A DNA stretch of 64,000 nucleotides, taken from positions 24,109 to 88,108 of the forward strand of contig JAGAQH010000025.1 of NCBI GenBank assembly GCA_017622815.1. Reading direction: 5' to 3'. Every line of letters starts with the position of its first letter. The stretch's first letter is position 1. The DNA is from Bacteroidaceae bacterium. Lineage in GTDB: Bacteria > Bacteroidota > Bacteroidia > Bacteroidales > Bacteroidaceae. Positions 15,385 through 37,936 of this stretch are shown here, piece by piece. The position numbers and the translations under genes are program-made. Below the pieces are notes generated by a model that was given only the letters and a program-made list of their open reading frames with translations, made no database searches and was not told where the DNA came from.

Positions 15385-17934
15385 ATGAAAAAGTTTATAC
15401 TCCTTTTAATTGTAGCATTTGTAGGGCTTGTGGATATGCAGGCGCAAATGTATAATATATACGTTAGAAATGCGGAAGGTAAGCCCTTGAAGGGAGTCAT
15501 GGTATATACTTTCCCCATAAAGAATAAGGGTCTGGAAGCATATCGGGAAGCCGTTAGCAATTATGGAAGGTTTGATTTGGTCCGTAACGGTGTTGTTGCA
15601 AGAGGAGAGACTCAGACGGATGGATTGTGTGTTATTGAAGGCCGCAAGTCTGGAGCAATAATACTTGATGGCTATGGCGTATCCGGCGATATATATGGTA
15701 TATCTTTATATTACGTTGAAGATTATGTAAAAGGCTCTCTTGATAATACGATAGAATTAGTGTTAAAGTCAGAAGGCTCAAGTGAGGTCGGAATGGGAGG
15801 CCAGATTACGAGAAAAGAGTCTTCGGTTAAAGCCGGTGTCTTTAATGAGGGAAAGGCAACAAATATAAAGGAGAAGAGCATTAGGGTAAAACCGATATTG
15901 GAAGGAGAGGGATCAGGCCTTGCCATCAGAAAAAACAAGTATACGGTAGAGATTAATAGACCTATACGTATATCAGGAGATTATGCACGAAATGATTCCA
16001 GATTCGTTGCGTTTCCTTGGGTAGTACTTGAGAAACATAAGGATTCCGTGTTGTATACAATGCAACCTGTTGTAGTTGATGGTATTGAGTACCAAAAAGG
16101 TATGGAAAGAAGGATGAGCTTTGATGTTTCTCGTGACATGCTGGATAAATATCATTATGACAATAGTCTCTTCTTGTCGGATCATAACAGCGAGGAGATA
16201 CTTTATTCCCATTCCATATCCGTAGAGAAGGGTGAGAAATGGCATGTTCCTGGGGTAGTTTGGTTTGAGGATTTTAATTGTGTTTATTATCAGGATTCAA
16301 TCCTTTTTCATGATGGAAGGGAAATAGAGCCTATGCGTTTCCTTGAGTGGGAATCGGCACGCCAGCTCGTTGAAATAGACAAAACAAAATTCTATAAGCA
16401 AGGAACATATGAGGCTATACCGGATAGGTCAAGTTACAATTTGAGGTTTGAACAGGGTGACATTCACTTAAATTTGAGAGATAGCCTGACATTACTTCAA
16501 CGCGATAGGATGTTGACTTGGCTTGGAAATTACTACAACAACAAGGAGGGACAGATTGACACTATTATCGTAAGAGGATACTCTTCTCCTGAGGGATTTG
16601 AAAATAGAAACAGACAACTTGCCCGTAGCCGTGCAAAAACTATAATATCCTTATTATCAGGACACTTCCCAGATGTCCCTATAAAGTCAGAATTTAATGA
16701 GTATGACAATATCGTTCCCTGGGAAATAGTTGCTGATAGTATGAGCCTAATGGATGATTCCTTGGCTCAGAGTTATGCAATAGAAGTAAGAAAAATTATT
16801 GCAAGCAACAATAGCCTTGATGCTCAGTATCGTGTTATACATGCTAATCGTGCTATGTATAACTATATTGAGCAAAACGTGTTGGATAGGATAAGAGTTG
16901 TGGAAATACAGGCAAATGTTGTAATGCAGCGTATTCTCTCAAAGGAGGAAATAATAGAAAAGTATACGAACGAACCGGAGTTCAGGACAAGAATGGTACC
17001 GTATCAATATTATACAATGATATCATACCTTGCCGACGAGGAACAATGGGAAGAACTTTATAAGGTAGCTAAAGACGCTTATTATAAATATGATAAGGAA
17101 CGAGAGCTTGTTCGTATTAGTGCCGTTAAAAGCAAGGATGAAGTAACCCAGAAAGACACTATCGTAGGTACATATATCAAAACAATGGTTCCATATCCTT
17201 TGGCAGGATATTATTATGCAGTGGCTTCAATGAAGAAAGGGATAATCGACAAGAATATCCTAAAACCCTATCTTGATGATGGCCCTGTTGCCAAACGTGA
17301 TGTAATGAATAGTCTGCCTTTTGTAGTCGCGCAGGTATTGATGTATTGTCAGGATGAGGACTTCGAGGGGGCTAATGATTTGATAAAGAAATATCACCTT
17401 TTAGAATATCCGGAATTAAATGGTCTTGTAATGTTTGTTAAGTGTTTGAATTACGAACTTACAGATAAGTCTGTTTTGGATTACGTGATGTCAACTTCAG
17501 CAATGAATAAGGCTGTCGTATATATCGCAATGGGAAAATACAGGGAAGCACTGGAAATACTTTATGGGAAAGATGTTCCATATCCGGACGATAGAGTTGA
17601 GTACATGAAGGCTATAGCTCATTTCCGTTCGCAAAATTCTAATGTTACGAATTTGGAGGTTGATGGATACTCTGGTTCAAGGGTTTATGCTCAGGGCGAG
17701 TACGGGATTACCACAACAGCGTGGGCAGCGCCAATGCTGAATGCATTCTCTCTGAATGAAGATAATGTTAGGTATTTGGAGTCTGACGGATATTTTAATG
17801 ATGCATATCGGCAGATGTTGTTTTATTTTTGGGAACGTAAAAAGTCAGGTATCCCAATGGAGCAGATAGTCAGAGAGTATGATGCCTTAATTAAACAGAT
17901 GAGAGAAATACGCAAAAAGGCATGGAGCAATTAA
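15385..17934 (+). CDS. exported OmpA-like protein with C-terminal helical repeats (surface cluster gene 1)
   Basis: An 849-residue protein with a signal peptide (cleavage near MQAQ). Residues ~22-130 look like a carboxypeptidase-regulatory-like beta-sandwich (YVRNAEGKPLKGVMVYTF). Residues ~185-350 are unrecognised beta-rich sequence. Residues ~352-440 form an OmpA-like peptidoglycan-associated domain, with IIVRGYSSPEG followed by NRQLARSRAKTI matching the G-x-SSPEG/N-x-x-LA-x-x-RA pattern. The remaining ~400 residues are mostly helical, with TPR-like periodicity. The combination resembles DUF3868/OmpA-type proteins found beside DUF3575 genes in Bacteroidetes fimbria-like loci, but I cannot confirm DUF3868 by eye. 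It is first in a tight co-directional cluster (13 nt to the next gene). Likely role: anchoring to peptidoglycan. Low-GC codon use differs from flanking genes. Confidence 0.75.
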   Translation: MKKFILLLIVAFVGLVDMQAQMYNIYVRNAEGKPLKGVMVYTFPIKNKGLEAYREAVSNYGRFDLVRNGVVARGETQTDGLCVIEGRKSGAIILDGYGVSGDIYGISLYYVEDYVKGSLDNTIELVLKSEGSSEVGMGGQITRKESSVKAGVFNEGKATNIKEKSIRVKPILEGEGSGLAIRKNKYTVEINRPIRISGDYARNDSRFVAFPWVVLEKHKDSVLYTMQPVVVDGIEYQKGMERRMSFDVSRDMLDKYHYDNSLFLSDHNSEEILYSHSISVEKGEKWHVPGVVWFEDFNCVYYQDSILFHDGREIEPMRFLEWESARQLVEIDKTKFYKQGTYEAIPDRSSYNLRFEQGDIHLNLRDSLTLLQRDRMLTWLGNYYNNKEGQIDTIIVRGYSSPEGFENRNRQLARSRAKTIISLLSGHFPDVPIKSEFNEYDNIVPWEIVADSMSLMDDSLAQSYAIEVRKIIASNNSLDAQYRVIHANRAMYNYIEQNVLDRIRVVEIQANVVMQRILSKEEIIEKYTNEPEFRTRMVPYQYYTMISYLADEEQWEELYKVAKDAYYKYDKERELVRISAVKSKDEVTQKDTIVGTYIKTMVPYPLAGYYYAVASMKKGIIDKNILKPYLDDGPVAKRDVMNSLPFVVAQVLMYCQDEDFEGANDLIKKYHLLEYPELNGLVMFVKCLNYELTDKSVLDYVMSTSAMNKAVVYIAMGKYREALEILYGKDVPYPDDRVEYMKAIAHFRSQNSNVTNLEVDGYSGSRVYAQGEYGITTTAWAAPMLNAFSLNEDNVRYLESDGYFNDAYRQMLFYFWERKKSGIPMEQIVREYDALIKQMREIRKKAWSN

Positions 17935-17947
17935 AAAGGGTAGACTT

Positions 17948-18673
17948 ATGAAGCATTCACATAATTATCTTAGCTTATTCATGACGTTTTGTGTCGTCGT
18001 GTTTATAAGTAATGTAGCATATGCTCAAAGACCAACGCGTTCTGCGATAAACTTGGGACTTAGCGTTAAGTGGGCAAATATGAACATCGGTGCCGATACT
18101 CCAGAGGAATATGGTAATTATTATGCATGGGGTGAAACAGACACCAAAAGGTATTATGGTATATATTCAACATATAGGCATTATGATGAAAAAGTATACC
18201 ATAAATATACTTATAAGGAACTAATAGGGACAGCACCAGACTATTTGTTTATTCTTCTTCCTGAGGATGATGCCGCTTCAAAGGCTTGGGGAGACAGATG
18301 GCGCATGCCAACGGCAGATGAGATGAAGGAACTTGTAGAAAAGTGTCAATGGCGATATGTAATACATAATGGGACAAGGGGGTATTGGGTGAAGAACAAA
18401 TACCATGAATCAGACTCCATATTCATGCCATTGGTAGGCTACAGAGATTATGGTACATACAGATTCCGTCCAGGAACAGAGGGACGTTATTGGACTTCTT
18501 CATTGCTTGACTCGGATGCTGTTTCTAATGTAGAGTCAATTGAACCTAACAAGATGGATTCTTCAGTGTGTTTGAAAATATCTGTCAGCCATATACCGAG
18601 TATTGACTATATACCTCGACCGGTCGGATGTGCAATTCGCCCGGTGTTAAACGAAAAGCCATTTAGTAAATGA
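17948..18673 (+). CDS. exported FISUMP-domain protein (surface cluster gene 2)
   Basis: A 241-residue protein with a signal peptide (cleavage near AYAQ). The mature part carries landmarks of the Fibrobacter-succinogenes major paralogous domain: NLGLSVKWANMNIGADTPEE, YYAWGETD, WRMPTADEM with a following CQW, GYWV, RYWTSS and a final AIRPV. This domain is widespread on exported Bacteroidetes proteins and has no assigned catalytic activity. It is often an adhesin-like or glycan-associated module. The stop overlaps the next start by 4 nt (ATGA), so it is translationally coupled to gene 3 of the cluster. Confidence 0.82.
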   Translation: MKHSHNYLSLFMTFCVVVFISNVAYAQRPTRSAINLGLSVKWANMNIGADTPEEYGNYYAWGETDTKRYYGIYSTYRHYDEKVYHKYTYKELIGTAPDYLFILLPEDDAASKAWGDRWRMPTADEMKELVEKCQWRYVIHNGTRGYWVKNKYHESDSIFMPLVGYRDYGTYRFRPGTEGRYWTSSLLDSDAVSNVESIEPNKMDSSVCLKISVSHIPSIDYIPRPVGCAIRPVLNEKPFSK

Positions 18674-20403
18674 GAAAGATAGAACTTATACTTATATTGT
18701 TGTTCTTAGGAACATTGGCATTATATTCCCAATTACCAGTAAAAGGTGATTGGACAACCCGTTTAGGCAATGATCCGCATCAGGCAAAGGATGCAAGAAC
18801 ACTTTATCATAAGATATTTCAATCATCAAACTCGCCGGTGATAAGAGGAAATGAGGAGAAAAGTGTCGGATTGGATTTCTATGAGAGTTTCAAGAGATTA
18901 GATGACATTGCTCCTTATTGTACCTACTATTTCTATAATGGATATTTATTTGAAGAAAAGGAGAATGCAGAGTTAGGTCGTGTAGAGAAGAGTGCGTTTC
19001 AACGTCTATTGGACAATACTCAAGACCCTGCGATTAAAATGATTATCGTAGATGACATTTTAAGCGTAGGAAAACGTTTTGTTACAGATTTGGATAGTAT
19101 AAATGTTGTTCGCAATAATCGAGATACTACGGCAAAGGCATCTGATGATACATTAAGTGTACCTGTAGCCATGATCAAGTATGCTCACTTATATTATAAG
19201 TATGCAGGTAATCCAGATTATTATCCGTCAATTTTATATGACAAGGCTAAAGCTCGTGAAAACTTCAGAATGGCCTTTGCCTTGTTGCGTGAACAAAATA
19301 TCGAGTTTGCCAAGGAATTGGAAGCATACTATGTATATGAGTATTATTTGACATGCGAGGAACTGTACAACTCTGATAAGGAACAGTATTATGAACAATT
19401 TCTTGAAGACTATCTGGACATTATTCAAACATGTGACGAACTGTTATTGCCTTATTACAACATTCCGGATAGCATAAAGAACAATATACATAACAAAGAA
19501 TATTCTGTTTATCGTAGTTACAATAACTTTGCTAATAATATTCAGGTCAATCAGATTACAGGAGAGAGGATATTGCCTATAAAATATCGTTTCAGTCAGT
19601 CTGGTGCCGCGAATTCAGAGAGATTGGAATCATTTTACGCTGATAGGTTGGAATCACATCTAAATGACACGTCCTTTTTGGAACGTGCCGTGCATTTGAT
19701 GACCGAAAACGGGATGGTTGATAATGAAACTTATTATCGTTATTGTATGGCTTCATATAAATTACGTCCCACGTACGAGAATTGCATCGGTATGGGAAAA
19801 TACGTAGGAACCGAGGATGTTAGCAGAATGCGTGAGTATTATCTTGAGGCATTAGAAGATGCAGACACACCCGAGAAGAAGGTTATAGTATATTATATGA
19901 TAGGCTTATCTACATACTCATCTCCTCTGCAATATATAAATAATGTAAAGCGCGATGCAACAACGCTGAGACTTAAAGTAAAGGATGGTTATTCTGAATG
20001 GGAAAAGGAAATGGAAATAGGGAATGCCAATCTTGCAAATGTTATAGAGCATGCGGATGAGATTAAAGATAGTAGAATTCTTGAAATCAGAGACTATCCT
20101 GCCAGAGCACATTATATGATAGGCACTAATTTGAGATGGAAGGGATATGTTGATTATAATCCTCAAATATTCGAAGAGGCAAAAGAACATATATTGAAGG
20201 CTAATAGTTTGGACATTAAAGCAAAGGCCATTACTAATAGTATTGGTGTTAATATACCAAGTGTATTGTCGTTCATCCAAAAATATTCAGAGGAGTCAAG
20301 TGCCAGCAGGAAAAAGCTGAAGAAGAGCGGGCCTGCCCAAAGCGAATTCCAAGATTACCTTAGAAGGAAAAAGCTTGAGGAGGCATTCTGGAAAATGAAA
20401 TAA
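18670..20403 (+). CDS. exported TPR-like repeat protein of unknown function (surface cluster gene 3)
   Basis: A 577-residue protein with a short signal peptide (LALYSQ). The mature chain is almost entirely predicted helix with TPR-like spacing, for example AKARENFRMAFALLRE, SRMREYYLEALEDADTPEKK, YNPQIFEEAKEHILKANSLD and RAVHLMTENG. A basic, Ser/Lys-rich C-terminus follows. No enzymatic motif. The protein is probably periplasmic and a scaffold for envelope assembly, inferred from its export signal and cluster context. It overlaps the previous gene by 4 nt and is 33 nt before the next. I do not recognise a named family. Confidence 0.7.
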   Translation: MRKIELILILLFLGTLALYSQLPVKGDWTTRLGNDPHQAKDARTLYHKIFQSSNSPVIRGNEEKSVGLDFYESFKRLDDIAPYCTYYFYNGYLFEEKENAELGRVEKSAFQRLLDNTQDPAIKMIIVDDILSVGKRFVTDLDSINVVRNNRDTTAKASDDTLSVPVAMIKYAHLYYKYAGNPDYYPSILYDKAKARENFRMAFALLREQNIEFAKELEAYYVYEYYLTCEELYNSDKEQYYEQFLEDYLDIIQTCDELLLPYYNIPDSIKNNIHNKEYSVYRSYNNFANNIQVNQITGERILPIKYRFSQSGAANSERLESFYADRLESHLNDTSFLERAVHLMTENGMVDNETYYRYCMASYKLRPTYENCIGMGKYVGTEDVSRMREYYLEALEDADTPEKKVIVYYMIGLSTYSSPLQYINNVKRDATTLRLKVKDGYSEWEKEMEIGNANLANVIEHADEIKDSRILEIRDYPARAHYMIGTNLRWKGYVDYNPQIFEEAKEHILKANSLDIKAKAITNSIGVNIPSVLSFIQKYSEESSASRKKLKKSGPAQSEFQDYLRRKKLEEAFWKMK

Positions 20404-20436
20404 TAGTCTTTGTAAGGCATAATTCAATTAAATAAT

Positions 20437-21912
20437 ATGCATCATATATACAGTATATTACGCAACGCCGCTGTATTAGTTTGTATACATCTGTTTTTTT
20501 CAGAAAGCATGTATGCCCAGAACGAACAGTTGTTGTCTTCCACAAGGGGTATGTTGGATACAATTCCTGTGGAAGCAAGAAACGTGTTCTATAAATATGC
20601 ACATTTACAGGATACCGCGCGTCTTCAAACAATAAAGAAATATTCTCAGGACAGCTTTTATAAAAGATTTAGCTTTCATACCAATATTGTCGATTGGGTC
20701 ACTTTGCTTCCCAACTTAGGTATTGAGTATGACTTAAAAAGTTCTCCGCGTAACAACTACAGTTTGTCTGTATTTGGAAAGTATAACGGCAATAGCAAGA
20801 ACGGAAAGTTCGTATATAATGTAAAGTCTCTCCGATTGGAATTTCGTAAATATTGGCGTACCGGCAAATATGGAAGTTTAAATAGACACTATGACGACTT
20901 TGAGAAGATTCATACCGATATGTCCAGTATCTATTACAATGCTGATAGTTTGGCGGCGTACTCTTACTATGTGGATTCTCTTGGTAGCAAGGCCAAGGCT
21001 TTAGGAATTGACCTTGAGTCAATACGAGCATCCAGTGATATGACACCTGAACAACTGGATTCTTTGGACTTTGCGGAAGATTCGTTGGGTATAAAAACTC
21101 ATCGTTTTCGCAATTGGTTCTATAATAAGTATCATCAGTTCCGAAGAAATGTGACATCTGGACGAACTCTTGAGAATCCCCGGAATTGGAGAGCTTATTA
21201 TTTGGGACTATGGAGCGCTGTTGATGATTGGGATATATCGTTGACAGGAAAGGGGAAAGCCGGCTATGGCTTTGGCTTGGGTGTAGTGGCTGGTTATACT
21301 TTGCCTTTGTTGCCTCAGAAGTATCCAAAGGAAGGAAGTCTGGATCTGGATTTAGGGCTTGCCGTAGGTTGGAAGGCAGTAAAATATGATGCATATGTTT
21401 ATGATGGAATTAGCCATAATTATATCAATGATATTTCCAATTCACAAGATTCATGGAAAATTGTTCCGTATCCGGTGATACAAGATGTTCATGTCAGTCT
21501 GGTGTGGCGTTTTAGAGGAATCAAAAACAAGGTTCATAAATCGCTGATAGATGATTATCTCAATCAAGTCCTGGCATATCAAAGAAACATGAATGAACAC
21601 ATGAAAAAGTATAATGATGTTGTTCATCGTAGGGAGGAGTTGGATATGTTGATTAAGAATCGAATTATAGAGCAAGTTGACAGTACCCGTTTCTGGAATG
21701 AATTCCATAAGCGCAGAATACTTAATGCGATGAAAATAAAGCCCGACACTGTATTTGGTGAGCAGGATATGAAATTATATTATAATCTTGTGAAGGGTAT
21801 AAAGGAGAAAGAATTAGAAAAGTTGCTAAAACAAAGGGAAGACAGCATAAGTAAGTTGCAAAAGATAGAGGCTAAACGCTTGCGTAAATCTTTGAAGGAA
21901 GCTCAGAAATAA
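20437..21912 (+). CDS. exported DUF3575-like protein with inserted and C-terminal helical segments (surface cluster gene 4)
   Basis: A 491-residue protein with a signal peptide (SMYAQ). FHTNIVDWVTLLPNLGIEYDL at about residues 76-96 and the following SLSVFGKYN and LRLEFRKYWRTG strands match the start of DUF3575 domains. RAYYLGLWSAVDDW, GYGFGLGVVAGYTLPL and SLDLDLGLAVGWKAVKYDAY continue the same small beta-barrel-like fold after a ~110-residue charged insertion (about 150-250). The last ~110 residues are charged helix with a coiled-coil look (LEKLLKQREDSISKLQ). DUF3575 proteins are encoded beside fimbrillin genes in Bacteroidetes and are thought to be outer-membrane components. The insertion and tail make this one more than twice the usual length. 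Confidence 0.75.
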   Translation: MHHIYSILRNAAVLVCIHLFFSESMYAQNEQLLSSTRGMLDTIPVEARNVFYKYAHLQDTARLQTIKKYSQDSFYKRFSFHTNIVDWVTLLPNLGIEYDLKSSPRNNYSLSVFGKYNGNSKNGKFVYNVKSLRLEFRKYWRTGKYGSLNRHYDDFEKIHTDMSSIYYNADSLAAYSYYVDSLGSKAKALGIDLESIRASSDMTPEQLDSLDFAEDSLGIKTHRFRNWFYNKYHQFRRNVTSGRTLENPRNWRAYYLGLWSAVDDWDISLTGKGKAGYGFGLGVVAGYTLPLLPQKYPKEGSLDLDLGLAVGWKAVKYDAYVYDGISHNYINDISNSQDSWKIVPYPVIQDVHVSLVWRFRGIKNKVHKSLIDDYLNQVLAYQRNMNEHMKKYNDVVHRREELDMLIKNRIIEQVDSTRFWNEFHKRRILNAMKIKPDTVFGEQDMKLYYNLVKGIKEKELEKLLKQREDSISKLQKIEAKRLRKSLKEAQK

Positions 21913-21992
21913 GTGGATTGTTCCACTCTTCAAGCGTACGATATTCCTATAAAAAACAACATGTCTCAGCATCTTTGCGAGTAAGATAAATT

Positions 21993-23372
21993 GTGATGTA
22001 TATGCGTATTATTCTATATCTATTTGTCATTCTGCTTGTTCACTCATGTCAGGAATCTTTCAATGATAGATTTCTGGAACATGATAGCCAAAATCCAAGT
22101 AAAGACAGCGTTGTGGATATTGTGTCACAACAAATAGAGATAAGACCGCTTGTCTTTGACCCTTATTATTCTAATGCGCATCATGGTGATATGCATTATT
22201 CTGTGACGTCTTCTGCCTCAAACAAGAATAAGTCAGTATTTCATACATTTGCACTGAAGACACATAGCAAGAGGGTAGGAGGCAAGGCCGATTATATCTC
22301 TGCAAGTTATGGAGATCCGGACTATTGTTTGTTATGGAACCAGAAACTATCTTTTCTTCATTCGCAAACTCGAGGTGCTTTTATTGATGATAATGGTGCA
22401 TTGATGAAGCTTTGTTATAAATCCGACGGGCTTCCATATAGATACAAATTTTTCATGCTCGGTACCCAAGGTGCCCCTATTCAATTTAGAGCACAGGATG
22501 ATAACAAAATATATGCCAACATTGAAATAGATGGCACAAATGATATCGCACATAGTTTTGCATATCATACAGATGCTCAATTTGTAGAAGCAATCAGTTC
22601 GATGAATCCTGATGTCGCAAAAGTATTCACAGATACCGGTCAGGATTGTATGTATAACCATTTTTCCGGATTTTATGGAGTCCATCCTGTATTTAACATT
22701 AACCATCTATTAAGTAGATTCCAGATAGAGATTAAAGGTCCAAGGCAGGATTTTGACAACTCCTATGATTTCTTGAAGGTGTTTATTAAAGACATTTCCA
22801 TTGATGTCGTAAAAAATGTTGATGTATTAGTGGCTGATGATTCATGGGAGGCAGATAGTTATTGTAAAGCGTTTGATAAGGGGCAACTACTTTTCCCGGC
22901 ATCAGAACCTACGTCAATATCTATTCCTATAAAAAACAGCGTCATGGGTAATACCTCCTTTACTCAGACGTTATTCCCGCATATAGATTTTGATGCATTA
23001 CAGGCAGAGGCGCACTCTTTAAGTAATGATGTTGGGGAAACTGTAATACCAGAGGAGTCATATTGGCTAGGTCGTAGTGCCGTGGATACGATTTCCCCGT
23101 TGTTATATATCCCTGTGTTTCCTGCAGATGAGGCTAATTTGGTCATGACTATAAAATACCGGTATCTGCATACGCGTACTTCTCCAGAGACAGGCTCTGT
23201 TCATGTGGGTTTATATGAAGAGAATTTGTATAACGATTATATCTGGCAAGATTTAGAAGAGAAACTTACTATACCCCTTCCGCAAGCTACATTAGATGCT
23301 AATAGGGATAGTGTACATACGATAGATATAACTATATACGGCAAGTCGGTTATAGAGGCCGTTGTAAGATAA
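21993..23372 (+). CDS. fimbrillin-like lipoprotein (surface cluster gene 5)
   Basis: A 459-residue lipoprotein. The lipobox is LVHSC with Cys19 (if the ATG at 21993 is used; ATG 22002 gives the same signal). Two beta-sandwich domains are suggested. FNINHLLSRFQIEIKG (about 230-245) and FLKVFIKDISID resemble the strand pair that FimA/Mfa-type fimbrillins use before their conserved sequence. The final segment, with HTIDITIYGKSVIEAVV, matches the usual fimbrillin ending. Bacteroidetes fimbrillins are exported as lipoproteins, processed by an arginine- or lysine-type protease, and polymerised or used as anchor/tip subunits. No obvious Arg cleavage loop can be assigned here, so an anchor or accessory subunit is as likely as a shaft subunit. 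Low GC. Confidence 0.68.
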   Translation: MMYMRIILYLFVILLVHSCQESFNDRFLEHDSQNPSKDSVVDIVSQQIEIRPLVFDPYYSNAHHGDMHYSVTSSASNKNKSVFHTFALKTHSKRVGGKADYISASYGDPDYCLLWNQKLSFLHSQTRGAFIDDNGALMKLCYKSDGLPYRYKFFMLGTQGAPIQFRAQDDNKIYANIEIDGTNDIAHSFAYHTDAQFVEAISSMNPDVAKVFTDTGQDCMYNHFSGFYGVHPVFNINHLLSRFQIEIKGPRQDFDNSYDFLKVFIKDISIDVVKNVDVLVADDSWEADSYCKAFDKGQLLFPASEPTSISIPIKNSVMGNTSFTQTLFPHIDFDALQAEAHSLSNDVGETVIPEESYWLGRSAVDTISPLLYIPVFPADEANLVMTIKYRYLHTRTSPETGSVHVGLYEENLYNDYIWQDLEEKLTIPLPQATLDANRDSVHTIDITIYGKSVIEAVVR

Positions 23373-23390
23373 TTTAATATAAACATAGAA

Positions 23391-23960
23391 ATGAATATAG
23401 TCAAGACTGCTACACGACATAATATGAGAAGGTTATTTCTTATTGCTGTTTTAATTATGCCTTGTTCTTTGCTTAAGGCACAGATGCTTGCATTGAAGAC
23501 AAACGCACTGATGGATGCGGCATTGGTCCCGAATATTGGCCTTGAACTTGCAACTGGTAATAAAACTTCGTTGGCAGCAAATGGCTTTGCCAGTTGGAAC
23601 ATTTACGGGATGAAGGCAAAAACTTATGGTTTTGCGCCGGAGTTCCGTTACTGGCTTTCAGGTAACACCTTCTCAAAACTCTTTGTCGGAATAGGAGCAA
23701 CAATGGCTCATTATGATATTGCGGCAAGAAAAACAGAATACTTTGGTTCTGCTTATGGAGGCGGAATCAATGTTGGATATAACTACTGGCTGTCAAAGCA
23801 TTTCTCTGTTGAATTTCATGGTGGTGTAGGTGTCTATTATTATCATCATGCCAGTTTTCCTGTAACTGAGGTAATAAACGATATTCCCAAATACAATGAT
23901 TCTGGGTGGACATTGCTTCCTTATCAGTTAGGAGTAAGTTTTGTGTATGTTATAAAGTAG
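23391..23960 (+). CDS. DUF3575 outer-membrane-type protein (surface cluster gene 6)
   Basis: A 189-residue protein with a signal peptide (LLKAQ; start ATG 23391, or ATG 23424 at the core of the signal). MLALKTNALMDAALVPNIGLELATG is a textbook DUF3575 opening, followed by strands FAPEFRYWLSG, LFVGIGATMAHYDI, GGGINVGYNYWLS, FSVEFHGGVGVYYY and a final QLGVSFVYVIK. This predicts a single eight-stranded barrel. It is the normal-length counterpart of the enlarged protein two genes upstream. Spacing is 18 nt from the previous gene and 45 nt to the giant barrel-repeat gene. Confidence 0.85.
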   Translation: MNIVKTATRHNMRRLFLIAVLIMPCSLLKAQMLALKTNALMDAALVPNIGLELATGNKTSLAANGFASWNIYGMKAKTYGFAPEFRYWLSGNTFSKLFVGIGATMAHYDIAARKTEYFGSAYGGGINVGYNYWLSKHFSVEFHGGVGVYYYHHASFPVTEVINDIPKYNDSGWTLLPYQLGVSFVYVIK

Positions 23961-24005
23961 GCCCAATGCCTGTAATAGGATATTAAGATAATATTTGCGT
24001 ATTGT

Positions 24006-27000
24006 ATGAAAATAAGTCTTAGATATATTGTTGCTTTTTTGATGCTTGTCCCGTTGTCTGTTTCGGCGCGGCAAGATGTGAGCCTATTTGTGAATGGTCA
24101 AGTGTTGCCTGAAGAAAAACAGTATTCAGACAATCATTCACATTCTATCGAAGATGACGAAGAAAGGAAGAACACTCCATCTATAGGATTTGATCCGAGC
24201 AGTGTGCGCCTACAGAAGCGCTATCGTCCTTTAGAGAATGACAGCCTGTTTCCAAAACTATGGTGGCGCCGCTTTTATTTTGGTATAGGTGGAGGAATAC
24301 AAGGGTTGACAGACAATATCGGTATGGTAAGCAATGCTTCGGCTAATGCTTATTTGGGCTATCATCTGACACCGATACACAGTCTCCGTCTGAGTGGTTC
24401 TTATATAAAATATAATTTTAATGGCAACAACAAATCGGCAAAGTCATTAGGTATCGGCATAGACTATTTGGTCAACCTTTCAAATTTCGCATGGGGATAC
24501 GATCCTTCCCGCGTCTTTGAGGTAAGTACTGTTGTCGGCATAGGTGCCAGATACAGCAGAGCCGCTTTGCCAAGTAAGATCAATCCTTATGCCCATATCG
24601 GACTTAATGCAGATGTCTATATAAGCAAGTACGCATCCTTGTTTTTCGAGCCATATATCGGAGCGCAAAGGCAAATGAGTACTGTTCTCAATAACCCAAG
24701 CCGAGAAAAGTGGAATTTGATGTATGGCTTTTCTACGGGACTGCAAGTCTCATTGGAGAACAGGACAGACTATTTTTCTGAGGCTGACAGTATTTACAAG
24801 AAGATATTTCTTGATACAAGTATAGGAGTCGTGTCCTCCGGACGCAGTGGGGGAATCCTTAACCGTTTAGGTGTTGGATATCAGGCTGCATTGGGCCTAT
24901 GGATTAATCCTATGATAGGTTTGCGTGTGGGTGCTCACGGCGAGTCTTTTTATTGGACCTCCAGAATAAGGAATAAAAACAATGTTCCTGTCAGGTACTC
25001 ACACAACCAGGTCCTTGTAGGAGGACGTGCTGAATTGATGTTGGACCCTCTCAATTTTTCAAAGAAATGGAGAGAAGCACCTGAAGGCCACGATTTTGAC
25101 TTGAATTTACTTCTCGGTGGCGAATTGGGTTGGGAATTGAAGAACGGACTTTACGGAGAGTCAATAAGAAGAAGTCATGCTTATTATTATGGTATAACTT
25201 CAGCCTTACAGGCCTTGTATCGTATTGATAAAGGAACATATATATACATAGAGCCTCGCTATCAGGCTATTTATTATAATGACAAGAAGTCGGAGGGGTG
25301 GTCTCCATCGGATCATATCGCATCCATTAATGTAGGCTCACGTGTATACTTGACTAAACCATTCAGTTTCAAGCGTCCACAAGGTGCATATATCCCCCAT
25401 TGGTGGGTTGCCATTGATGCCGGTGCTCTAAAATACTATAATGCACCAAGGGTTACTAAGGGTGGGATTGGGTTAAATCCCACTATAGGCTTTGCTGCTG
25501 GTTATGATTTGTCCCCCTGGGCTTCTTTCCGTGCTCAGTTAGCATACCAGAGGCTTTACAATGTGCATACGGCACGTTATTCCGGTTACGCAGGTTCGCA
25601 GAAGCGTTATGGAGAGGGTCTTTGGGAATCTTCTTATGACGCAATGGATTTGCGCCTGTCCTATATGTTGAACCTGAACAATCTTCTGCAGGGATACGAT
25701 GGAGAGCGTCGTTTCAACTTGTGGTGGACAGTCGGACCTTCTCTGAGTTATATCTTTAATCAGAGCGACACATGGGTTGAGGGACAGAAGAACGTGTTGC
25801 CTGACTTGAAGCATATCGAACTGTCCAACTCACGTGAAGGCAAGATATCGCCGGGTATCAATACGTCGATTATGGCAGCACTTCGTGTCGCTCCCCAATA
25901 CGATGTTACTGTTGAGGCGATGGGACAGTATAATTTTATCCAGGGTACAAACCCGGGAAACAACCCTCGTCTGAACAATGTCAAATACGGGCTTACCGTA
26001 GGTTCAAGATACCATATTTATCAGAGAAGTGACCGTCAGCGTCTGTGGCCTCGTTTCAACAGATATTTCTTTGATTCATCGTTTGCATGGTCAACAAGTT
26101 CCTTGTCCAATGCATTCAAACTTAGCGGTACACAGTACAGCGCTTCTTTGGGTATGTGGTTTACTCCTTACATAGGAGCACGTTTGGGTGTCAATGCCCA
26201 AACCATGTATCATTCCTCTAATGTCAGCAAGCAGAATGGGGTAGATATCCGCAAATCCAAGAGCATCGCTACCGGTTCTGCACGTGCCGAATTGGTTGTA
26301 AGTCCCCTCAACCTCTTCCCCAAGTGGAGAGATAAGGAGGGTGGACATGACTTCGATGTAAATCTTCTTGGCGGTTTGGATTTAGGCGGAATTGCAAGGA
26401 CTCCATCAGAAAGAGATCCGGAACGTCTGCAGTTCTATTATGGACTTACCGGTGCAATGCAGCTATTGTACCGTATAAATAATCCCGGCACTTATATCTT
26501 TGTCGAGCCCCGTTTCCTGTCAGCATACTACAAGCGTCCTTATTATAATACCGGTGTTTATGAAACGGTATCTGACAAGATGTTCTCTTTGGGTGTGGGT
26601 ACCAGGGTTTATATGGACAATCCGTCATTCGTTCCCGTAGGCTCAGAGGAGATGAACCCTCGCTGGTGGGCAGGTTTGTCTTTTGGAGGAGTAAAGTTGC
26701 AACGCTCCGAGACATGGCGTCCCACCTCCGGCCTTGGTTTGAATCCGGCCCTTGCGATGTCCGTAGGTTACGACTGGAAACCGTTGGTGTCTTTCCGCGC
26801 CCAACTGGCATATGAACGTATAGGCAATTATGCAAGCTCTTCATACACCGGCATTAACGAAAACGGCAAGACGGTATATGGATACGGACTTTGGAACAGC
26901 AAGTACAATGTTATGGATTTGCGTCTGGCCTATATGCTTAATGTAAACAATTTCCTTCAGGGCTATAATCCTAACCGCAGGTTCAATCTGTGGCTTATAG

Positions 27001-28589
27001 GAGGTCCTGCCTTGACTTGGATTGTCTCCGAGAACAACACCTTCGTAGAGGGACAGAACGCTACCTACAAGCCGTTGAGAGAGCTTGAATTGTCAACCTC
27101 GCGTTCTGGCAGGGTTTCTCCTGCAGTTTCTATGTCGATGATGGCGTCCATGGCTGTGGCCAAGGATGTTGATGTCACGGCAGAGGTAATGGGACAATAC
27201 AATTTTGTCCATGCGACCAATCCTGGTTCCAATCCGATTATGAACAATCTCAAGTATGGCTTTACTGTCGGTGGCAGATACTATATCAAACCGTTCAAGT
27301 TGAACATACTTGATGAATTCAAATCCCAGCCATGGCACAGTGGATGGCAATTGGAAGGCTCCTACGGCTGGGCATTGCCTATGGACACGAAGAACGCTTT
27401 CCGCTCGAGTGGCAGTGCCATGTACGCATCCCTTGGATATTGGTTCAATAGCCTGCTGGGTGCAAGATTGGGCATAGGCGGTAATCAGACATATTGGACA
27501 GAGAACTCCGTCAGTGCCGTCAAGGAACCTGTCAGCGGTGTTACTGTCCATGCCCCGTACACAGTCTATAAGAGCCAGACGGCAGTCGGAGGCCGTATGG
27601 AACTTATGCTCAACCCTCTGAACTTGTTGAAGTCAAGACGCGAGGCCGAGGCGGCGCCACGATGGGACATGAACATGTCGTTGGGTATGAATTTTGGCGG
27701 CATACTGAAGGTTCAGGGCATGTCTCGCGGTTATGTCGGCTTTACTGGGGCCGTTTCCGCATTGTACAGGCTCTCCAATACCGTGCAGCTATATGTGGAA
27801 CCCAGATACGATTCGTATAGCTACAATGTGTACAACAAGGAAATCATGAGCAATGAGTCCTTCTCCGACCGCATGTTCACGGTCAGTGTTGGTGCCAGAA
27901 TATCACGCCCCGTTCAGCAGACGGAGGACACCGAAGACAAGGAACTCTTGGCCGGAGCACATCGTGGCTGGTGGACAGCAGTGTCGTTAGGCGGTAGCAA
28001 AATGATGCAGACTCTGCGTGTAAGCAGCGGAGGAACTACGCTAAATCCCTCTTTCGTCCTGTCTGCCGGCTATGACTTCACACGCTTGCATGGAATGAGT
28101 CTTCAGCTCTCCACCGATATCCATTCCCGTCAGCGTCCCGGACAGCCCTATAGTGTACGTTCATATGGTCTGGAGCGTAATTACACCGGTATGGTGGATA
28201 GCAGATACAGCATGATGGATGTTCGTCTGATGTATATGTTGAACATGACTAACTTGTGGACAGGGCAAGACAGACGTAATGCACTGGATGTATATCTGCA
28301 GTTCGGCCCATCGGTTTCAACTATCCTGTCGGAAAGCAATCGTTTGGCCGACGGTGAGCTGGCCGGAGGTTCTGACTTCAAATACAGAGGCAAACGTTAT
28401 GCCGGTGAAACTTCCATGGGACTTGTCATGGGTATATTGGCATCGCTGCCTCTCAACCAGAATTGGGCTTTGACAGCAGAGGCTTCCGGCCAAGGTTACT
28501 TTAACCGTTCGTTTATGCCGGAACAGCATAACCACTTTATGAACAACCTGAAGATAAACTTCTCGGTGGGTACAAGGTATTCGTTCTGA
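24006..28589 (+). CDS. giant outer-membrane protein of about seven tandem beta-barrel-like modules (surface cluster gene 7)
   Basis: A 1,527-residue protein with a signal peptide (SVSARQ, cleavage near 21-22), a ~60-residue polar linker, then about seven homologous modules of 170-215 residues: ~86-255, 266-450, 463-673, 685-872, 886-1095, 1111-1302 and 1320-1527. Each module has an opening G-rich strand, a [GY]-W or GYD turn, R-x-QLAY or RLG strands, a DLRL-Y-MLN-NNLLQGY or AELML-PLN block, an EP-RY or AEVMGQYN strand, and closes with VG-[ST/G]-R-x-Y. Odd- and even-numbered modules are closer to each other than to neighbours, suggesting duplication of a two-module unit. The protein ends RYSF, a typical C-terminal barrel signal, and copies of it close the inner modules too. 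It is probably outer membrane; whether it forms several barrels or one large one is unknown. No known family recognised. Confidence 0.8.
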   Translation: MKISLRYIVAFLMLVPLSVSARQDVSLFVNGQVLPEEKQYSDNHSHSIEDDEERKNTPSIGFDPSSVRLQKRYRPLENDSLFPKLWWRRFYFGIGGGIQGLTDNIGMVSNASANAYLGYHLTPIHSLRLSGSYIKYNFNGNNKSAKSLGIGIDYLVNLSNFAWGYDPSRVFEVSTVVGIGARYSRAALPSKINPYAHIGLNADVYISKYASLFFEPYIGAQRQMSTVLNNPSREKWNLMYGFSTGLQVSLENRTDYFSEADSIYKKIFLDTSIGVVSSGRSGGILNRLGVGYQAALGLWINPMIGLRVGAHGESFYWTSRIRNKNNVPVRYSHNQVLVGGRAELMLDPLNFSKKWREAPEGHDFDLNLLLGGELGWELKNGLYGESIRRSHAYYYGITSALQALYRIDKGTYIYIEPRYQAIYYNDKKSEGWSPSDHIASINVGSRVYLTKPFSFKRPQGAYIPHWWVAIDAGALKYYNAPRVTKGGIGLNPTIGFAAGYDLSPWASFRAQLAYQRLYNVHTARYSGYAGSQKRYGEGLWESSYDAMDLRLSYMLNLNNLLQGYDGERRFNLWWTVGPSLSYIFNQSDTWVEGQKNVLPDLKHIELSNSREGKISPGINTSIMAALRVAPQYDVTVEAMGQYNFIQGTNPGNNPRLNNVKYGLTVGSRYHIYQRSDRQRLWPRFNRYFFDSSFAWSTSSLSNAFKLSGTQYSASLGMWFTPYIGARLGVNAQTMYHSSNVSKQNGVDIRKSKSIATGSARAELVVSPLNLFPKWRDKEGGHDFDVNLLGGLDLGGIARTPSERDPERLQFYYGLTGAMQLLYRINNPGTYIFVEPRFLSAYYKRPYYNTGVYETVSDKMFSLGVGTRVYMDNPSFVPVGSEEMNPRWWAGLSFGGVKLQRSETWRPTSGLGLNPALAMSVGYDWKPLVSFRAQLAYERIGNYASSSYTGINENGKTVYGYGLWNSKYNVMDLRLAYMLNVNNFLQGYNPNRRFNLWLIGGPALTWIVSENNTFVEGQNATYKPLRELELSTSRSGRVSPAVSMSMMASMAVAKDVDVTAEVMGQYNFVHATNPGSNPIMNNLKYGFTVGGRYYIKPFKLNILDEFKSQPWHSGWQLEGSYGWALPMDTKNAFRSSGSAMYASLGYWFNSLLGARLGIGGNQTYWTENSVSAVKEPVSGVTVHAPYTVYKSQTAVGGRMELMLNPLNLLKSRREAEAAPRWDMNMSLGMNFGGILKVQGMSRGYVGFTGAVSALYRLSNTVQLYVEPRYDSYSYNVYNKEIMSNESFSDRMFTVSVGARISRPVQQTEDTEDKELLAGAHRGWWTAVSLGGSKMMQTLRVSSGGTTLNPSFVLSAGYDFTRLHGMSLQLSTDIHSRQRPGQPYSVRSYGLERNYTGMVDSRYSMMDVRLMYMLNMTNLWTGQDRRNALDVYLQFGPSVSTILSESNRLADGELAGGSDFKYRGKRYAGETSMGLVMGILASLPLNQNWALTAEASGQGYFNRSFMPEQHNHFMNNLKINFSVGTRYSF
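24261..28586 (+). repeat. seven tandem coding repeats (barrel modules)
   Basis: Protein-level tandem duplication of a ~200-residue module. DNA identity is already low between most copies. The pairs 2/4/6 and 1/3/5 (numbering from 0) share the longest phrases, for example NNFLQGY/NNLLQGY and WVEGQ/FVEGQ in modules 2 and 4. GC rises along the gene, with the last two modules visibly richer than the first. Confidence 0.75.
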
Positions 28590-33333: not shown

Positions 33334-36300
33334 TTAGTATTTCTCCTTATGCCTTTGCTCGCGTTCCTCGCGTTCGTGACGGATGCGCTCGCGCTCCATC
33401 AGAACCTGTGCATCGGGTTCTTCTATCATAGCAGGTCGGATCTTCTCCTGTACCCATTCAAAGAATATGAAGAATACGGGCACGGTGAGCAGAATGGCAA
33501 TGGTTCCCAGGAACATACCGCCGATTACGGCGATACCGATGGTACGGTTACCATTGGCACCGGCACCAGTCATGATAACAAGGGGAATCATACCGATAAT
33601 CATGGTGAGTACGGTCATCAGAATGGGACGCAGACGAGCCTCGGCGGCAGCGTATGCGGCCTCAACGATACCCAGTCCCTTGCGGCGACGCTCCAGAGCA
33701 TACTCGGTGATAAGGATGGCAGTCTTTGCTAACAGACCGATAAGCATGATGACGGCAGTCTGCATGTAGATGTTGTTGTCAATCTTGCCCAGGAAGATGA
33801 AGGGCAGGACTGCATAACCTTGATTCCACAGCCATGCAAATCCGTAGGCACCCATCAGACCGGCAGGTACAGAGAGGATAACAGCCCAGGGAATGAGGAA
33901 ACTTTCGTAGAGCATGCTCAAAATCAGGAATATCAGCACGCAGCATACGCCATAGATGAGGTATGATGCCATGCTGCCCATCTGCTCATACTCTTCGCGG
34001 CTCATGCCACCATATTCAAAGGCATAGCCAGAGGGGAATACCTTGTCGAACTCCTCCTGTACGGCCACCATAACGTCGGTACTTGCATAACCGGCATTGG
34101 GGGTGAGGTTACACATGATGGAGCTGAACAGGTTGAAACGTGTGTCAATCTCAGGACCAAGAACAGATGTGAGCTTGAGGAACTGGGACAGAGGCGCCAT
34201 TTCGCTTCCGATGCGTACGAACATGTTGCCCAGGTCCTCTTCAGTGATACGGGCCTTCTCGTTGGCGGCCATCATCACACGGTAAACCTTACCGAACTGG
34301 TTCATGTTGCTTACGTATGCACCACCGCAGTAGGTACCCAGCGCACTGAGCACGTCGGCAGGCGAAACACCGGCACGCTTGCACTGTGCGGCATCTACCT
34401 CAACCTGAATCTGCGGGAAGTTACGTGCGTATGATGTCATGGCACGGGCCACCTCGGGACGCTTGCCCATGGCCTCGAGGAACTTGTTGGTATACTCCAG
34501 GAACAGTTCCTTGTCACCACCCATCTTATCCTGCAGGTTCAACTCGATAGAACCGGTACCATAGCCGGGAATCATACCAGGCTCGAAGGCAAAACACTGT
34601 GCTTCGGGAATCTCGCTCATCATGCGTAGGTTCAGTTTGGCATTGGCAACCATGGTGCTTGATGACAAGAAGTTGTCAATGGGGTGAAGCATGCCATAGT
34701 TACGCTCGTTCCAATGCTTCAGACGTACGATGGCCATACCGTAAGAAACACCCTGACCAGCCATGAAACTGTAACCGTTTACACGGATATAGTCCTTTAC
34801 CTCGGGGGTCTCCTGCATTATCTTCTCCACCTTGTCCATGGTCTTAACAGCAGTGCCAAGGTTGGTTCCGGGAGGTGTATTCATTACCAGCATTACCGTA
34901 CCCTGGTCCTCTGCGGGAACAAGACCTACGGACAGGTTGCTTGCAAAGAAAGCCATGCCGGCAAAGGCAACCAGAATGCTGGTGGGGGCAATCCAACGGT
35001 TCTTGGCGCGGATGAGTGCTGCCAGAATGTTGCTGTACTTGTGCAGCATGGCATTGTAGGATGCCTCATAGGCCTTGCGGGTATAGAAGTTGACAGTACC
35101 CATGAAACCCTTGCGGCGTTCGCCTGTTGCAGGCTTCATGAGCATGGCACACAGAGCAGGGCAAAGGATGAGGGCGCTGACGCAGCTAAGACCTACGGCA
35201 GTAGCCAGGGTTACACCGAACTGTGTGTAGAACATGCCGGATGTGCCGGGCATGAAACTTACGGGGATGAACACGGCCATGAAGACGAAGGTACATGAGA
35301 TTACGGCCATGGTAACGTCGCCCATCGCATCGCGTGTGGCTTCGTAAGGACTCTTGTAACCGGCATCGAACTTGGCCTGTACGGCCTCAACCACCACGAT
35401 GGCATCGTCCACCACCGTACCGATGGCAAGCACAAGTGCAAACAGAGTAAGCAGGTTGAGGGAGAAGCCTGCAATGGCCAGACATGCAAACGTACCTACC
35501 AGAGAAACGATAATTGACACGGCAGGGATGAAGGTTGCACGGAAGTCCTGCAGGAAGAAGTACACCACCAGTACCACCAGAATAATGGCAATGATGAGGG
35601 TTTCCTCTACATTATAGATAGATGCATTGAGGAAGTCGTTAGAAGACATTACGTTAACGAACTCCAGACCAGCAGGCAGATTCTCGCTCAGTTCGGCCAA
35701 CTTGGCATCGATAGCGTCGTTGGCTTCCTTGGAGTTTGTACCAGCCATCTGGAATATCATGAAGGTGGTAGAGGGGTTGCCGTTACAGGTGCCATAGAAG
35801 GCATAGCTGTTTGAACCCAGTTCCACGTCTGCTACATCCCCCAGGTGAAGTATGCTTCCGTCGGGCATGGCCTTGAGGACGATGTTCTCAAACTCCTCGA
35901 CAGACTTAAGACGGCCAGTGTATTTCAGAGTGTACTGATACACGTTCTCTATGCCGTTGCCACGGTTGGCAGTCATGGGCTTTTCGCCAAGCTGACCGGC
36001 AGGAGACTCGAGGTTCTGCTCGGCAAGCGCATAGGTTATGTCGGTGGGAACCAGTTTGTGCTGTGCCATCAGTTCGGGCTTCAGCCATATACGGAGTGAA
36101 TACTGACCGCCCATTGCCATAACGTCGCCTACACCCTTGATACGCTTGATTTCGGGGATGACGTTGATGTCAAGGTAGTTTGAAATGAAGTCCTGGTCGT
36201 ATTCGCCGTTTGTACAGGTCAGGGCGTTACCCTGCAGGAATGAAGTCTGGCGCTTCTGTGTGGTTACACCGATCTTCGTTACTTCCTGAGGCAGCAGTCC

Positions 36301-36648
36301 CTGTGCCTTTGATACACGGTTCTGTACGTTCACCGCAGCCATGTCGGGGTCGGTACCCTGCTTGAAGTAAACGGTGATGGAGGCTGAACCGGAGTTTGTG
36401 GATGTGGAGGTCATGTACATCATGTTTTCCACACCGTTGATACTCTCCTCCAAGGGCTGGATTACTGCGTTTGTAACTGCATCTGCGTTGGCACCGGTAT
36501 ATTGTGCATTGACGGAAATGGTTGGGGGTGCAATATCAGGGAACTGCTCCATGGGCAGTGTGAAGAAACTGATTGCACCCACTATCAGAATCATGATGGA
36601 GATGGACATCGCCATCACGGGTCTTTTAATGAATATGTTTCCTTTCAT
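33334..36648 (-). CDS. RND efflux pump permease (HAE1/AcrB-like)
   Basis: A 1,104-residue inner-membrane proton antiporter, slightly longer than AcrB. It begins MKGNIFIKRPVMA (usual IxRPxxA start) and contains two homologous halves. Proton-relay residues are visible: the Asp pair in IGTVVDDAIVVVEA (TM4, around residue 410) and Lys in GLLAKTAILITEYA (TM10). The C-terminus is an Arg/Glu-rich tail. It exports hydrophobic and amphiphilic compounds as a trimer with the adaptor and channel encoded on either side. It is the middle gene of a three-gene minus-strand operon, 56 nt after the adaptor gene. Confidence 0.95.
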   Translation of the reverse strand: MKGNIFIKRPVMAMSISIMILIVGAISFFTLPMEQFPDIAPPTISVNAQYTGANADAVTNAVIQPLEESINGVENMMYMTSTSTNSGSASITVYFKQGTDPDMAAVNVQNRVSKAQGLLPQEVTKIGVTTQKRQTSFLQGNALTCTNGEYDQDFISNYLDINVIPEIKRIKGVGDVMAMGGQYSLRIWLKPELMAQHKLVPTDITYALAEQNLESPAGQLGEKPMTANRGNGIENVYQYTLKYTGRLKSVEEFENIVLKAMPDGSILHLGDVADVELGSNSYAFYGTCNGNPSTTFMIFQMAGTNSKEANDAIDAKLAELSENLPAGLEFVNVMSSNDFLNASIYNVEETLIIAIILVVLVVYFFLQDFRATFIPAVSIIVSLVGTFACLAIAGFSLNLLTLFALVLAIGTVVDDAIVVVEAVQAKFDAGYKSPYEATRDAMGDVTMAVISCTFVFMAVFIPVSFMPGTSGMFYTQFGVTLATAVGLSCVSALILCPALCAMLMKPATGERRKGFMGTVNFYTRKAYEASYNAMLHKYSNILAALIRAKNRWIAPTSILVAFAGMAFFASNLSVGLVPAEDQGTVMLVMNTPPGTNLGTAVKTMDKVEKIMQETPEVKDYIRVNGYSFMAGQGVSYGMAIVRLKHWNERNYGMLHPIDNFLSSSTMVANAKLNLRMMSEIPEAQCFAFEPGMIPGYGTGSIELNLQDKMGGDKELFLEYTNKFLEAMGKRPEVARAMTSYARNFPQIQVEVDAAQCKRAGVSPADVLSALGTYCGGAYVSNMNQFGKVYRVMMAANEKARITEEDLGNMFVRIGSEMAPLSQFLKLTSVLGPEIDTRFNLFSSIMCNLTPNAGYASTDVMVAVQEEFDKVFPSGYAFEYGGMSREEYEQMGSMASYLIYGVCCVLIFLILSMLYESFLIPWAVILSVPAGLMGAYGFAWLWNQGYAVLPFIFLGKIDNNIYMQTAVIMLIGLLAKTAILITEYALERRRKGLGIVEAAYAAAEARLRPILMTVLTMIIGMIPLVIMTGAGANGNRTIGIAVIGGMFLGTIAILLTVPVFFIFFEWVQEKIRPAMIEEPDAQVLMERERIRHEREEREQRHKEKY

Positions 36649-36704
36649 CGTTGTTTCGTAGTTTAGTTTTGGCAGTTGTGCCGTTGTCGCTTTCCGTTAG
36701 TCTG

Positions 36705-37808
36705 TTACTTTACCTTCTGGCCTTCCTTAACCATACCTGCGCCTTCGGCTACGATTTCCTCACCGCCCTCAAGACCGGATGTTACAATGAACTGATTGCC
36801 GGCCTTGTGCTCGTTGACGGTTACAACCTTGCCATTGGCGATACCTTCCTTGTTCACGAGGAACACGCGGAAACGGTCCTGAGTCTGTACTGCTGCTGTG
36901 GCAGGAATGACAAGTACCTGGCTGTAGGGTGTGGGTATGATGACATTACCGGTGCTGCCGCTGTGCAGGATGCCGTTGTCGTTGTCAAACACGGCGCGGA
37001 GCTGTACGCTGCCGGTATTGCTGTTTACTATACCGCTGATGCTTTCCACACGGCCTTTCTTTTCGTAGGTGGAACCGTCAACCAGTGTCAGTGTCACTTC
37101 AGGCATGTTCTTGATTGCCTCGTTTATGGAGCCGCTCTTGCGCACGATTCCAAGAAGGTCGCGTTCTGACATGCTGAAGTATACCCACATCTGGCTGTTG
37201 TCGCTGATGGTGGTCAGAGGCTGTGCCATCTGTGCACCGACAAGTGCTCCCTGGCGATAGGGCAGGGTACCAACAACACCGTCAGAGGGAGACTTGACAA
37301 CAGTGTATGAAAGGCTGTTGCGTGCATTGACAACCTGAGCCTGTGCCTGTGCCACCTGTGCCTTTGCAGTGAGCAGTGTGTTGTGGGTGGCCTGCAGATC
37401 GAAGTCGGAGATGACGTTGTCTGCAAACAGTTTCTTCTTGCTCTCATAGTTCATTGCGGCAGTGGCTTCGCTGGCCTGTGCGGCTTTCAGTGATGCCTCT
37501 GCTGTGTTCAGGGCTGCCTGGTATGGAACCTGGTCGATGATGAACAGTGTCTGGCCCTTGCGTACAGCCTGGCCTTCGGTGACGCAAATCTGCTTCAGTG
37601 TGCCTCCAACCTGAGGGTAGATGTCAACGTCCTGACGTCCACGGATTGTAGCACTGTACTTTGTCTCTAATGTCAAATCCTGACGGCCGACCTTGGTGGT
37701 CTTGAAGGTCGCAGTGGGAATCTGCTGCTGCTTTTTCTCTCCACAGGATGCCAGCATAGCCGAAGCGGCGATGGCTACGGCAAAAACAATCTTTCCGTTT
37801 ACTTTCAT
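36705..37808 (-). CDS. RND efflux periplasmic adaptor lipoprotein (AcrA-like)
   Basis: A 367-residue membrane-fusion protein. ATG 37808 starts a lipoprotein signal peptide (AMLASC, Cys22); the longer frame upstream would run through the promoter. Domains in order are a beta-barrel/lipoyl half (YPQVGGTLKQICVTEGQAVRKGQTLF), an alpha-helical hairpin (AEASLKAAQASEATA...), the second lipoyl half (SPSDGVVGTLPYRQGALV), then barrel and membrane-proximal domains. It connects the inner-membrane pump with the outer-membrane channel. It is first of the operon; an upstream palindrome could bind a repressor, but no regulator gene is adjacent. Confidence 0.93.
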   Translation of the reverse strand: MKVNGKIVFAVAIAASAMLASCGEKKQQQIPTATFKTTKVGRQDLTLETKYSATIRGRQDVDIYPQVGGTLKQICVTEGQAVRKGQTLFIIDQVPYQAALNTAEASLKAAQASEATAAMNYESKKKLFADNVISDFDLQATHNTLLTAKAQVAQAQAQVVNARNSLSYTVVKSPSDGVVGTLPYRQGALVGAQMAQPLTTISDNSQMWVYFSMSERDLLGIVRKSGSINEAIKNMPEVTLTLVDGSTYEKKGRVESISGIVNSNTGSVQLRAVFDNDNGILHSGSTGNVIIPTPYSQVLVIPATAAVQTQDRFRVFLVNKEGIANGKVVTVNEHKAGNQFIVTSGLEGGEEIVAEGAGMVKEGQKVK

Positions 37809-37936
37809 TGTTTTTGTGTTTGTTTGTTTGTATTTCGTTGTTTTGTATCCTTTGTCGCCTGGGTTTGTCGCTCCATGTGCCGATGGCGCATGTGCAAGTG
37901 CCCGTTCTTGTATGAAAGGGCGCATTAAACCGCGTG

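Follow-up and report, generated by a model that had tools for sequence, protein, structure and literature searches.

Gene content of the locus

The window, by which we mean the entire 64,000-nucleotide stretch of DNA analysed here, comes from the genome assembly of a gut bacterium of the Bacteroidaceae, 2.57 Mb long and 88% complete. Seven genes on the same strand, separated by gaps of no more than 80 bases, extend from position 15385 to 28589 (Table 1). The last of these is a real and repetitive open reading frame (ORF; 24006-28589, forward strand) encoding 1,527 amino acids, and the whole protein passes the Pfam cut-off of PF13505 (OMP_b-brl) with 30.9 against the required 28.7 bits. Its N-terminal extension reaches residue 85, directly followed by module 1. 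The preliminary description had proposed a single polypeptide of this length with about seven modules, and the ORF, the module map and self-comparison confirm both the chain and the modules.

Among named records, relatives of the protein occur in three Bacteroidaceae assemblies of the ruminant gut: one from dairy cattle colon, whose best segment is 96% identical and truncated at the contig end, one from water buffalo caecum (55%) and one from yak colon (56%). The best 120 of 168 database relatives are 98-100% identical to the 1,527-residue protein. Because 116 of these 120 have exactly the same length, with the other four at 1,515-1,523 residues, the number of modules looks fixed among them.

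Other genes in the window include one for an LptD-type protein at 1906-4731 on the forward strand (PF19838, E 4.7e-163) and, on the reverse strand, an RND-type pump gene (PF00873) that adjoins an HlyD-type membrane-fusion gene (33334-38027) and a gene for a TamB protein of 1,513 residues (42879-47420; PF04357, E 1.3e-51).

Table 1. Genes of the seven-gene run and parts of the array protein, in window coordinates (L numbers denote loci of relatives)
Feature	Position	Strand	Evidence
849-aa OmpA/TPR-type protein (TPR label by eye)	15385..17934	+	weak stretch like the OmpA C-terminal domain (PF00691 E 0.0045, below cut-off); homologues near relatives' arrays
241-aa protein, weak Lcl_C	17948..18673	+	PF07603 E 0.0015, below cut-off
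577-aa protein without Pfam family	18670..20403	+	homologues in L004, L005, L041, L055, L062
491-aa protein, partial DUF3575	20437..21912	+	PF12099 E 3.4e-8, over cut-off
459-aa lipoprotein-like protein (LVHSC), remote fimbrillin relative	21993..23372	+	no Pfam match; hhalign
189-aa DUF3575 protein	23391..23960	+	PF12099 E 4.1e-37, positions 3-177/177
Predicted multi-barrel protein, A-B-A-B-A-B-A	24006..28589	+	ORF; PF13505 over cut-off; module map
N-terminus resembling a signal peptide (judged by eye, roughly residues 1-21), then extension up to M1	24006..24260	+	sequence
M1, family A, 8 predicted long strands	24261..24806	+	module map; AlphaFold
M2, family B, 8 predicted long strands	24807..25397	+	module map; AlphaFold
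M3, family A, 8 predicted long strands	25398..26063	+	module map; AlphaFold
M4, family B	26064..26660	+	module map
M5, family A	26661..27341	+	module map
M6, family B	27342..27965	+	module map; PF13505 positions 21-174/175, E 2e-5, alone below cut-off
M7, family A, C-terminus VGTRYSF	27966..28586	+	module map; PF13505 positions 23-172/175, E 0.005, alone below cut-off

Two alternating families of modules

The seven modules start at residues 86, 268, 465, 687, 886, 1113 and 1321 and were cut at lengths of 182-227 residues. Self-comparison, which had been suggested as a check on the repeats, gave significant internal homology, with Smith-Waterman z scores against 200 shuffles far above chance (93 for M3-M5 and 56 for M2-M4). 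M1, M3, M5 and M7 resemble one another and make up family A, and M2, M4 and M6 likewise make up family B. Sequence identity is 51% between M3 and M5 and 25-34% in three further A pairs for which it was calculated; the three B pairs share 35-39%. Pairs of one A and one B module score at the level of shuffled sequences (z of at most 1.5), with the exception of M1-M4 (z 2.7). When the profiles of the two families were aligned by hhalign, they matched with an E-value of 2.8e-26 over 168 of 179 columns, which means that all modules share one barrel ancestor and that A and B are well separated. The original account of a single repeat of about 200 residues occurring seven times thus holds for the homology of the seven modules, but the repeat is of two alternating kinds.

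The modules had also been described as closing with a strand of the VG-x-R-x-Y type in six cases, and with RYSF in the last. A VG-x-R motif does close six modules, M2 to M7, but the last module is one of those six, the strict form with tyrosine is limited to M2, M4 and M5, and the closing strand of M1 reads GLQVSL. Two further VG-x-R matches fall inside modules. Pfam searches with single modules were mostly weak, with three of the seven matched at E-values up to 1, and PF00691 is absent from the Pfam matches of the whole protein within the same limit. A profile search of solved structures returned one match (E 0.85) and nothing relevant. Among NCBIfam models, CglE (NF033755) was considered and rejected, as it scored 35.1 bits against a cut-off of 70 and covered residues 1319-1412 only. 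DUF3575 was likewise unconvincing as a relative of the modules, with hhalign probabilities of 43.7 for A and 1.6 for B. An Mfa_like match and a lipobox, which characterize type V pilus subunits, were sought in the 1,527-residue protein; there was no such match, and the protein has no cysteine anywhere.

Composition of arrays among relatives

Profiles built from the modules of the window were iterated and run on the ORFs of relatives' loci. From 344 sequences with at least two modules we kept 286, dropping those contained in another sequence and leaving near-identical ones in place. Module order was counted in 110 complete, unmasked, genome-derived ORFs of at least 450 amino acids with at least two modules, including that of the window (112 before two L156 frames with masked stretches were left out). 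Since these ORFs were gathered through their resemblance to the window's protein and to an A-B-A alignment, the sample is no random census; 92 of its 110 ORFs have B modules. Strict A(BA)n order is found in 88 of those 92, comprising 50 ORFs with three modules, 23 with five, 12 with seven, two with nine and one with 13. The four others are two AAAAABA arrays (L055:7877-12010 and L062:4145-8296, mixed arrays from the genus of the window), one ABAAABA and one ABAB. The ABAB frame (L072:1533-3752) has four modules, and since the genome search reports an internal stop in the locus, this gene may be interrupted. An A module at both ends and an odd number of modules are therefore seen in 91 of the 92. 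Clustering at 90% identity leaves 103 ORFs, with 82 of the 86 that have B modules in strict order, and the smallest margin between A and B scores over 405 modules is 28 bits. The remaining 18 ORFs are A-only arrays of three to eight modules, even numbers included; loci of the A-only class are L036, L074, L075, L077-L080, L084-L085 and L087-L096. Homologues with other module numbers, which the preliminary description had proposed to look for, are thus present, ranging from three to 13 modules in arrays with BA pairs (BA arrays) and from three to eight in A-only arrays.

Database proteins with at least two modules were counted apart from the genome-derived ORFs. These 164 proteins, with P0002-P0121 left out as nearly identical to the window's protein, comprise 65 AAAA, 53 AAAAA, 33 ABA, five ABABA, three BA and two AAAAAAA arrays, plus one each of AAABAB, ABABAA and ABBA. 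Alternation is strict in 38 of the 44 that have B modules, and the six exceptions are P0134, P0170, P0172 and three short proteins of 366-498 residues. Two shorter relatives, P0168 and P0169, carry MatE (PF01554) in their database records and are perhaps products of assembly or gene-calling joins.

A tree built from the B modules of 24 proteins, in which some deeper nodes are poorly supported, suggests how the arrays have grown. In the window and four relatives, the first, second and third B modules form three position-wise clades within one clade (support 0.998). In the 13-module protein all six B modules cluster together (support 0.97), as do the four of a nine-module protein at L020 (support 0.90). 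These groupings support the view that BA pairs were multiplied separately in several lineages.

Predicted fold of the modules

AlphaFold was run once, on residues 60-686 covering M1 to M3 with a 40-row alignment, and the result was read as strand positions. As proposed in the preliminary description, the prediction serves as a check on the barrel reading, and it places eight long strands in each module, or 24 in all (mean pLDDT 82.6, pTM 0.73), with two extra short strands of three and five residues in M3.

Barrel closure was tested by coevolution, ranking antiparallel strand pairs (28 for each module and 120 for concatenated neighbours). Among the 28 pairs in A modules (N 996, Meff 716), the first eight places go to exactly the sequential ones from s1-s2 to s7-s8 plus the closing pair s1-s8, which is eighth. 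The closing pair ranks seventh when only A modules of BA arrays are used (N 360) and ninth with those of A-only arrays (N 644), with one non-neighbour pair above it in each case. When neighbouring A modules are concatenated (N 515), the two closures rank 17 and 22 of 120 and the s8-s1 bridge between modules ranks 98. For B modules (N 212, Meff 166) the sample is shallow and s1-s8 comes 16th of 28; when A modules were reduced to an equal number, its rank ranged over 4-19, with a median of 8 in 24 draws. Depth is also insufficient for the A-B and B-A concatenations, which place closure at 51-76 of 120 and the bridge at 116 and 94, respectively. In the pool of A and B modules, the seven neighbour pairs are in the top ten and s1-s8 is absent from it.

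The best evidence that one module corresponds to one complete barrel comes from the host's own OmpA of 390 amino acids (L002:1363-2535), which consists of a single barrel and PF00691. This protein matches module A over its whole length (positions 1-170 of 173, 119 bits), and module B over positions 1-183 of 189 (50 bits). Because coevolution closes the barrel in A modules and gives no support for a bridge from one A module to the next, the array most likely consists of small barrels in series rather than one giant barrel. AlphaFold and coevolution together predict more than one barrel per chain, at least for the four A modules; a reading as linked closed barrels is supported for these and likely for the B modules. 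The preliminary description had offered linked barrels, one large barrel and a stalk side by side, and among these the evidence favours linked closed barrels, for which we infer a location in the outer membrane.

Genes conserved next to the arrays

The two DUF3575 matches in the host genome are both at the array locus. With purpose-built profiles, and leaving out 10 arrays with less than 3.5 kb upstream as well as masked frames, we find a same-strand DUF3575 gene no more than 5 kb away at 74 of 75 BA and 12 of 12 A-only arrays (86 of 87 in total). OmpA/TPR-type genes are found within the same distance and on the same strand at 70 of 75 and 12 of 12, respectively (82 of 87), and both genes are kept in 81 of the 87 loci. 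One relative has two five-module arrays in 19 kb (L029:7580-10630 and L029:14728-17691), each preceded by OmpA/TPR-type and DUF3575 genes of its own.

The small family of the 459-residue lipoprotein-like protein matched fimbrillin-type proteins with an hhalign E-value of 5.1e-18 over 238 columns, in a single comparison that included the signal peptide and used seven Pfam-positive and three untested fimbrillin-type proteins. With 26 arrays that have less than 4.5 kb upstream and masked frames left out, 36 of 68 BA arrays and none of three A-only arrays have a fimbrillin-type ORF no farther than 8 kb away. Candidate lipoproteins were examined at six relatives' loci, and Mfa_like_1 passes the Pfam cut-off at five of them; it has no match in the window's operon or in the host genome (at 88% completeness). 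A fimbrial role is therefore not general, as the host has no Mfa_like_1 match and 32 of the 68 BA loci and all three A-only loci are without a fimbrillin-type ORF. In Bacteroides thetaiotaomicron, passages of one study list a fimbrillin-type gene, BT4227, and DUF3868 and DUF3575 genes among BT4233-BT4236; as far as those passages go, the genes appear in expression tables with no function given (PMC10434189).

Proposed role and alternative explanations

Our interpretation, held with moderate confidence, is that the seven homologous modules of two alternating families each form their own closed eight-stranded outer-membrane barrel, and that the chain, working with DUF3575 and OmpA/TPR-type partners, acts as a raft that anchors a surface structure or helps to assemble it. 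The array chain would be secreted into the periplasm and inserted into the outer membrane one barrel at a time, with the repeated VG-x-R closing strands as putative signals. A and B barrels may then line up against each other in a row or raft that has A at either end and whose length would be set by BA duplication, and a periplasmic N-terminus would have the loops facing outwards. Finally, the raft and its DUF3575 and OmpA/TPR-type partners may anchor or help assemble a surface structure, of the fimbrillin type in many loci; this is the weakest step, because nearly half of the BA loci (32 of 68) show no fimbrillin-type ORF nearby. More tentatively, A(BA)n arrays could represent a distinct class of outer-membrane scaffold, in which the two barrel types alternate in their packing along the chain, B can be placed only between two A barrels, and BA duplication in separate lineages tunes the size of a raft of three to 13 barrels beneath surface fibres that are made with DUF3575 and OmpA/TPR-type partners.

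In an adhesin or surface-display array, which we regard as an unlikely though serious alternative, the barrels would merely hold outer loops that bind partners, and the neighbouring genes would be incidental. The BA loci without a fimbrillin-type neighbour fit this explanation, as does sequence variation among the 116 close relatives of 1,527 residues (the four of other lengths left out), where 31 of 346 sites vary in the predicted outer loops against 31 of 840 in strands (Fisher p 0.0005). The loops vary modestly, however, at 9% of sites, which does not exceed the 17 of 195 seen in the linkers and N-terminus; inner turns, at 10 of 146, are also about level with the loops, so the outer face is not singled out. 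The retention of both DUF3575 and OmpA/TPR-type genes at nearly all loci further suggests a shared machine rather than incidental neighbours. We consider it very improbable that the protein is a multi-channel porin, with every barrel letting small solutes through. The predicted barrels are the sole, indirect point in its favour; eight-stranded barrels are usually too narrow to conduct, and the charged residues that A and B both conserve on strands 3, 4 and 7 suggest a filled core. Such residues fit small plugged barrels of the OmpA and OmpX kind rather than channels, and thus favour a scaffold over a pore.

The two remaining explanations carry almost no weight with us. A single very large barrel of about 56 strands, serving as a wide secretion channel in the manner of SprA, would agree with a single chain whose three modelled modules are strand-rich throughout; against it, coevolution closes each A module and ranks the A-A bridge 98 of 120, the same module is the single barrel of OmpA, and the 13-module relative would require about 104 strands. 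It is just as hard to credit a stalk of barrel-like sheets that stands in the periplasm or outside the cell and is no membrane protein. The regular spacing of the repeats would agree with it; against it are the homology of module A to the OmpA barrel over its whole length, the matches to PF13505 and the closing strands of the outer-membrane protein type. We retain the raft of separate barrels as the preferred reading.

Comparison with known systems

Multi-barrel outer-membrane proteins were reportedly described by Solan and colleagues in PNAS in 2021, with eight-stranded domains said to prevail and to have arisen by independent amplification. The array resembles these proteins in having several barrel domains in a chain, and differs in that two families alternate (strictly in 88 of 92), with A at the ends and odd numbers from three to 13, and in the conserved DUF3575 and OmpA/TPR-type genes nearby. 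OmpA, as represented by the host protein, shares its barrel with module A, but combines one barrel with PF00691, which the array does not have. SprA is a large outer-membrane protein of Bacteroidota that forms one 36-strand barrel, whereas the array appears to link several small barrels.

Passages of PMC11494523 treat multi-barrel chains as an established class and cite Solan and colleagues for it. They also describe GfcD as two barrels in one chain, predicted to have 12 and 13 strands with a periplasmic domain between them, and propose a role in polysaccharide export. GfcD is thus like the array in its multiple barrels, but in that account has no tandem eight-stranded repeat. According to a 2025 review of gut Bacteroidales (PMC12632263), the type V (FimA/Mfa) pili of Bacteroidota are built from pilins of the anchor, the stalk and the tip. 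The fimbrillin-type ORFs near 36 of 68 BA arrays are a point of likeness to this system; the passages of the review on these pili name no barrel array or membrane platform.

Among the matches listed in a search of the open-licence literature, no paper title names alternating barrel arrays. While multi-barrel proteins have already been described, the alternation, the odd-number pattern, the repeated expansion of BA pairs and the conserved gene set are new here. Together they give multi-barrel proteins a sharp grammar of two kinds of module in near-strict alternation, with A at the ends and odd numbers, a parity that the all-A class breaks. This grammar makes the packing of barrel against barrel, and the folding of several barrels with repeated closing signals, directly testable. 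It also draws attention to an uncharacterised conserved gene set, consisting of DUF3575, an OmpA/TPR-type protein and a barrel array, near many fimbrillin-type genes of Bacteroidaceae.
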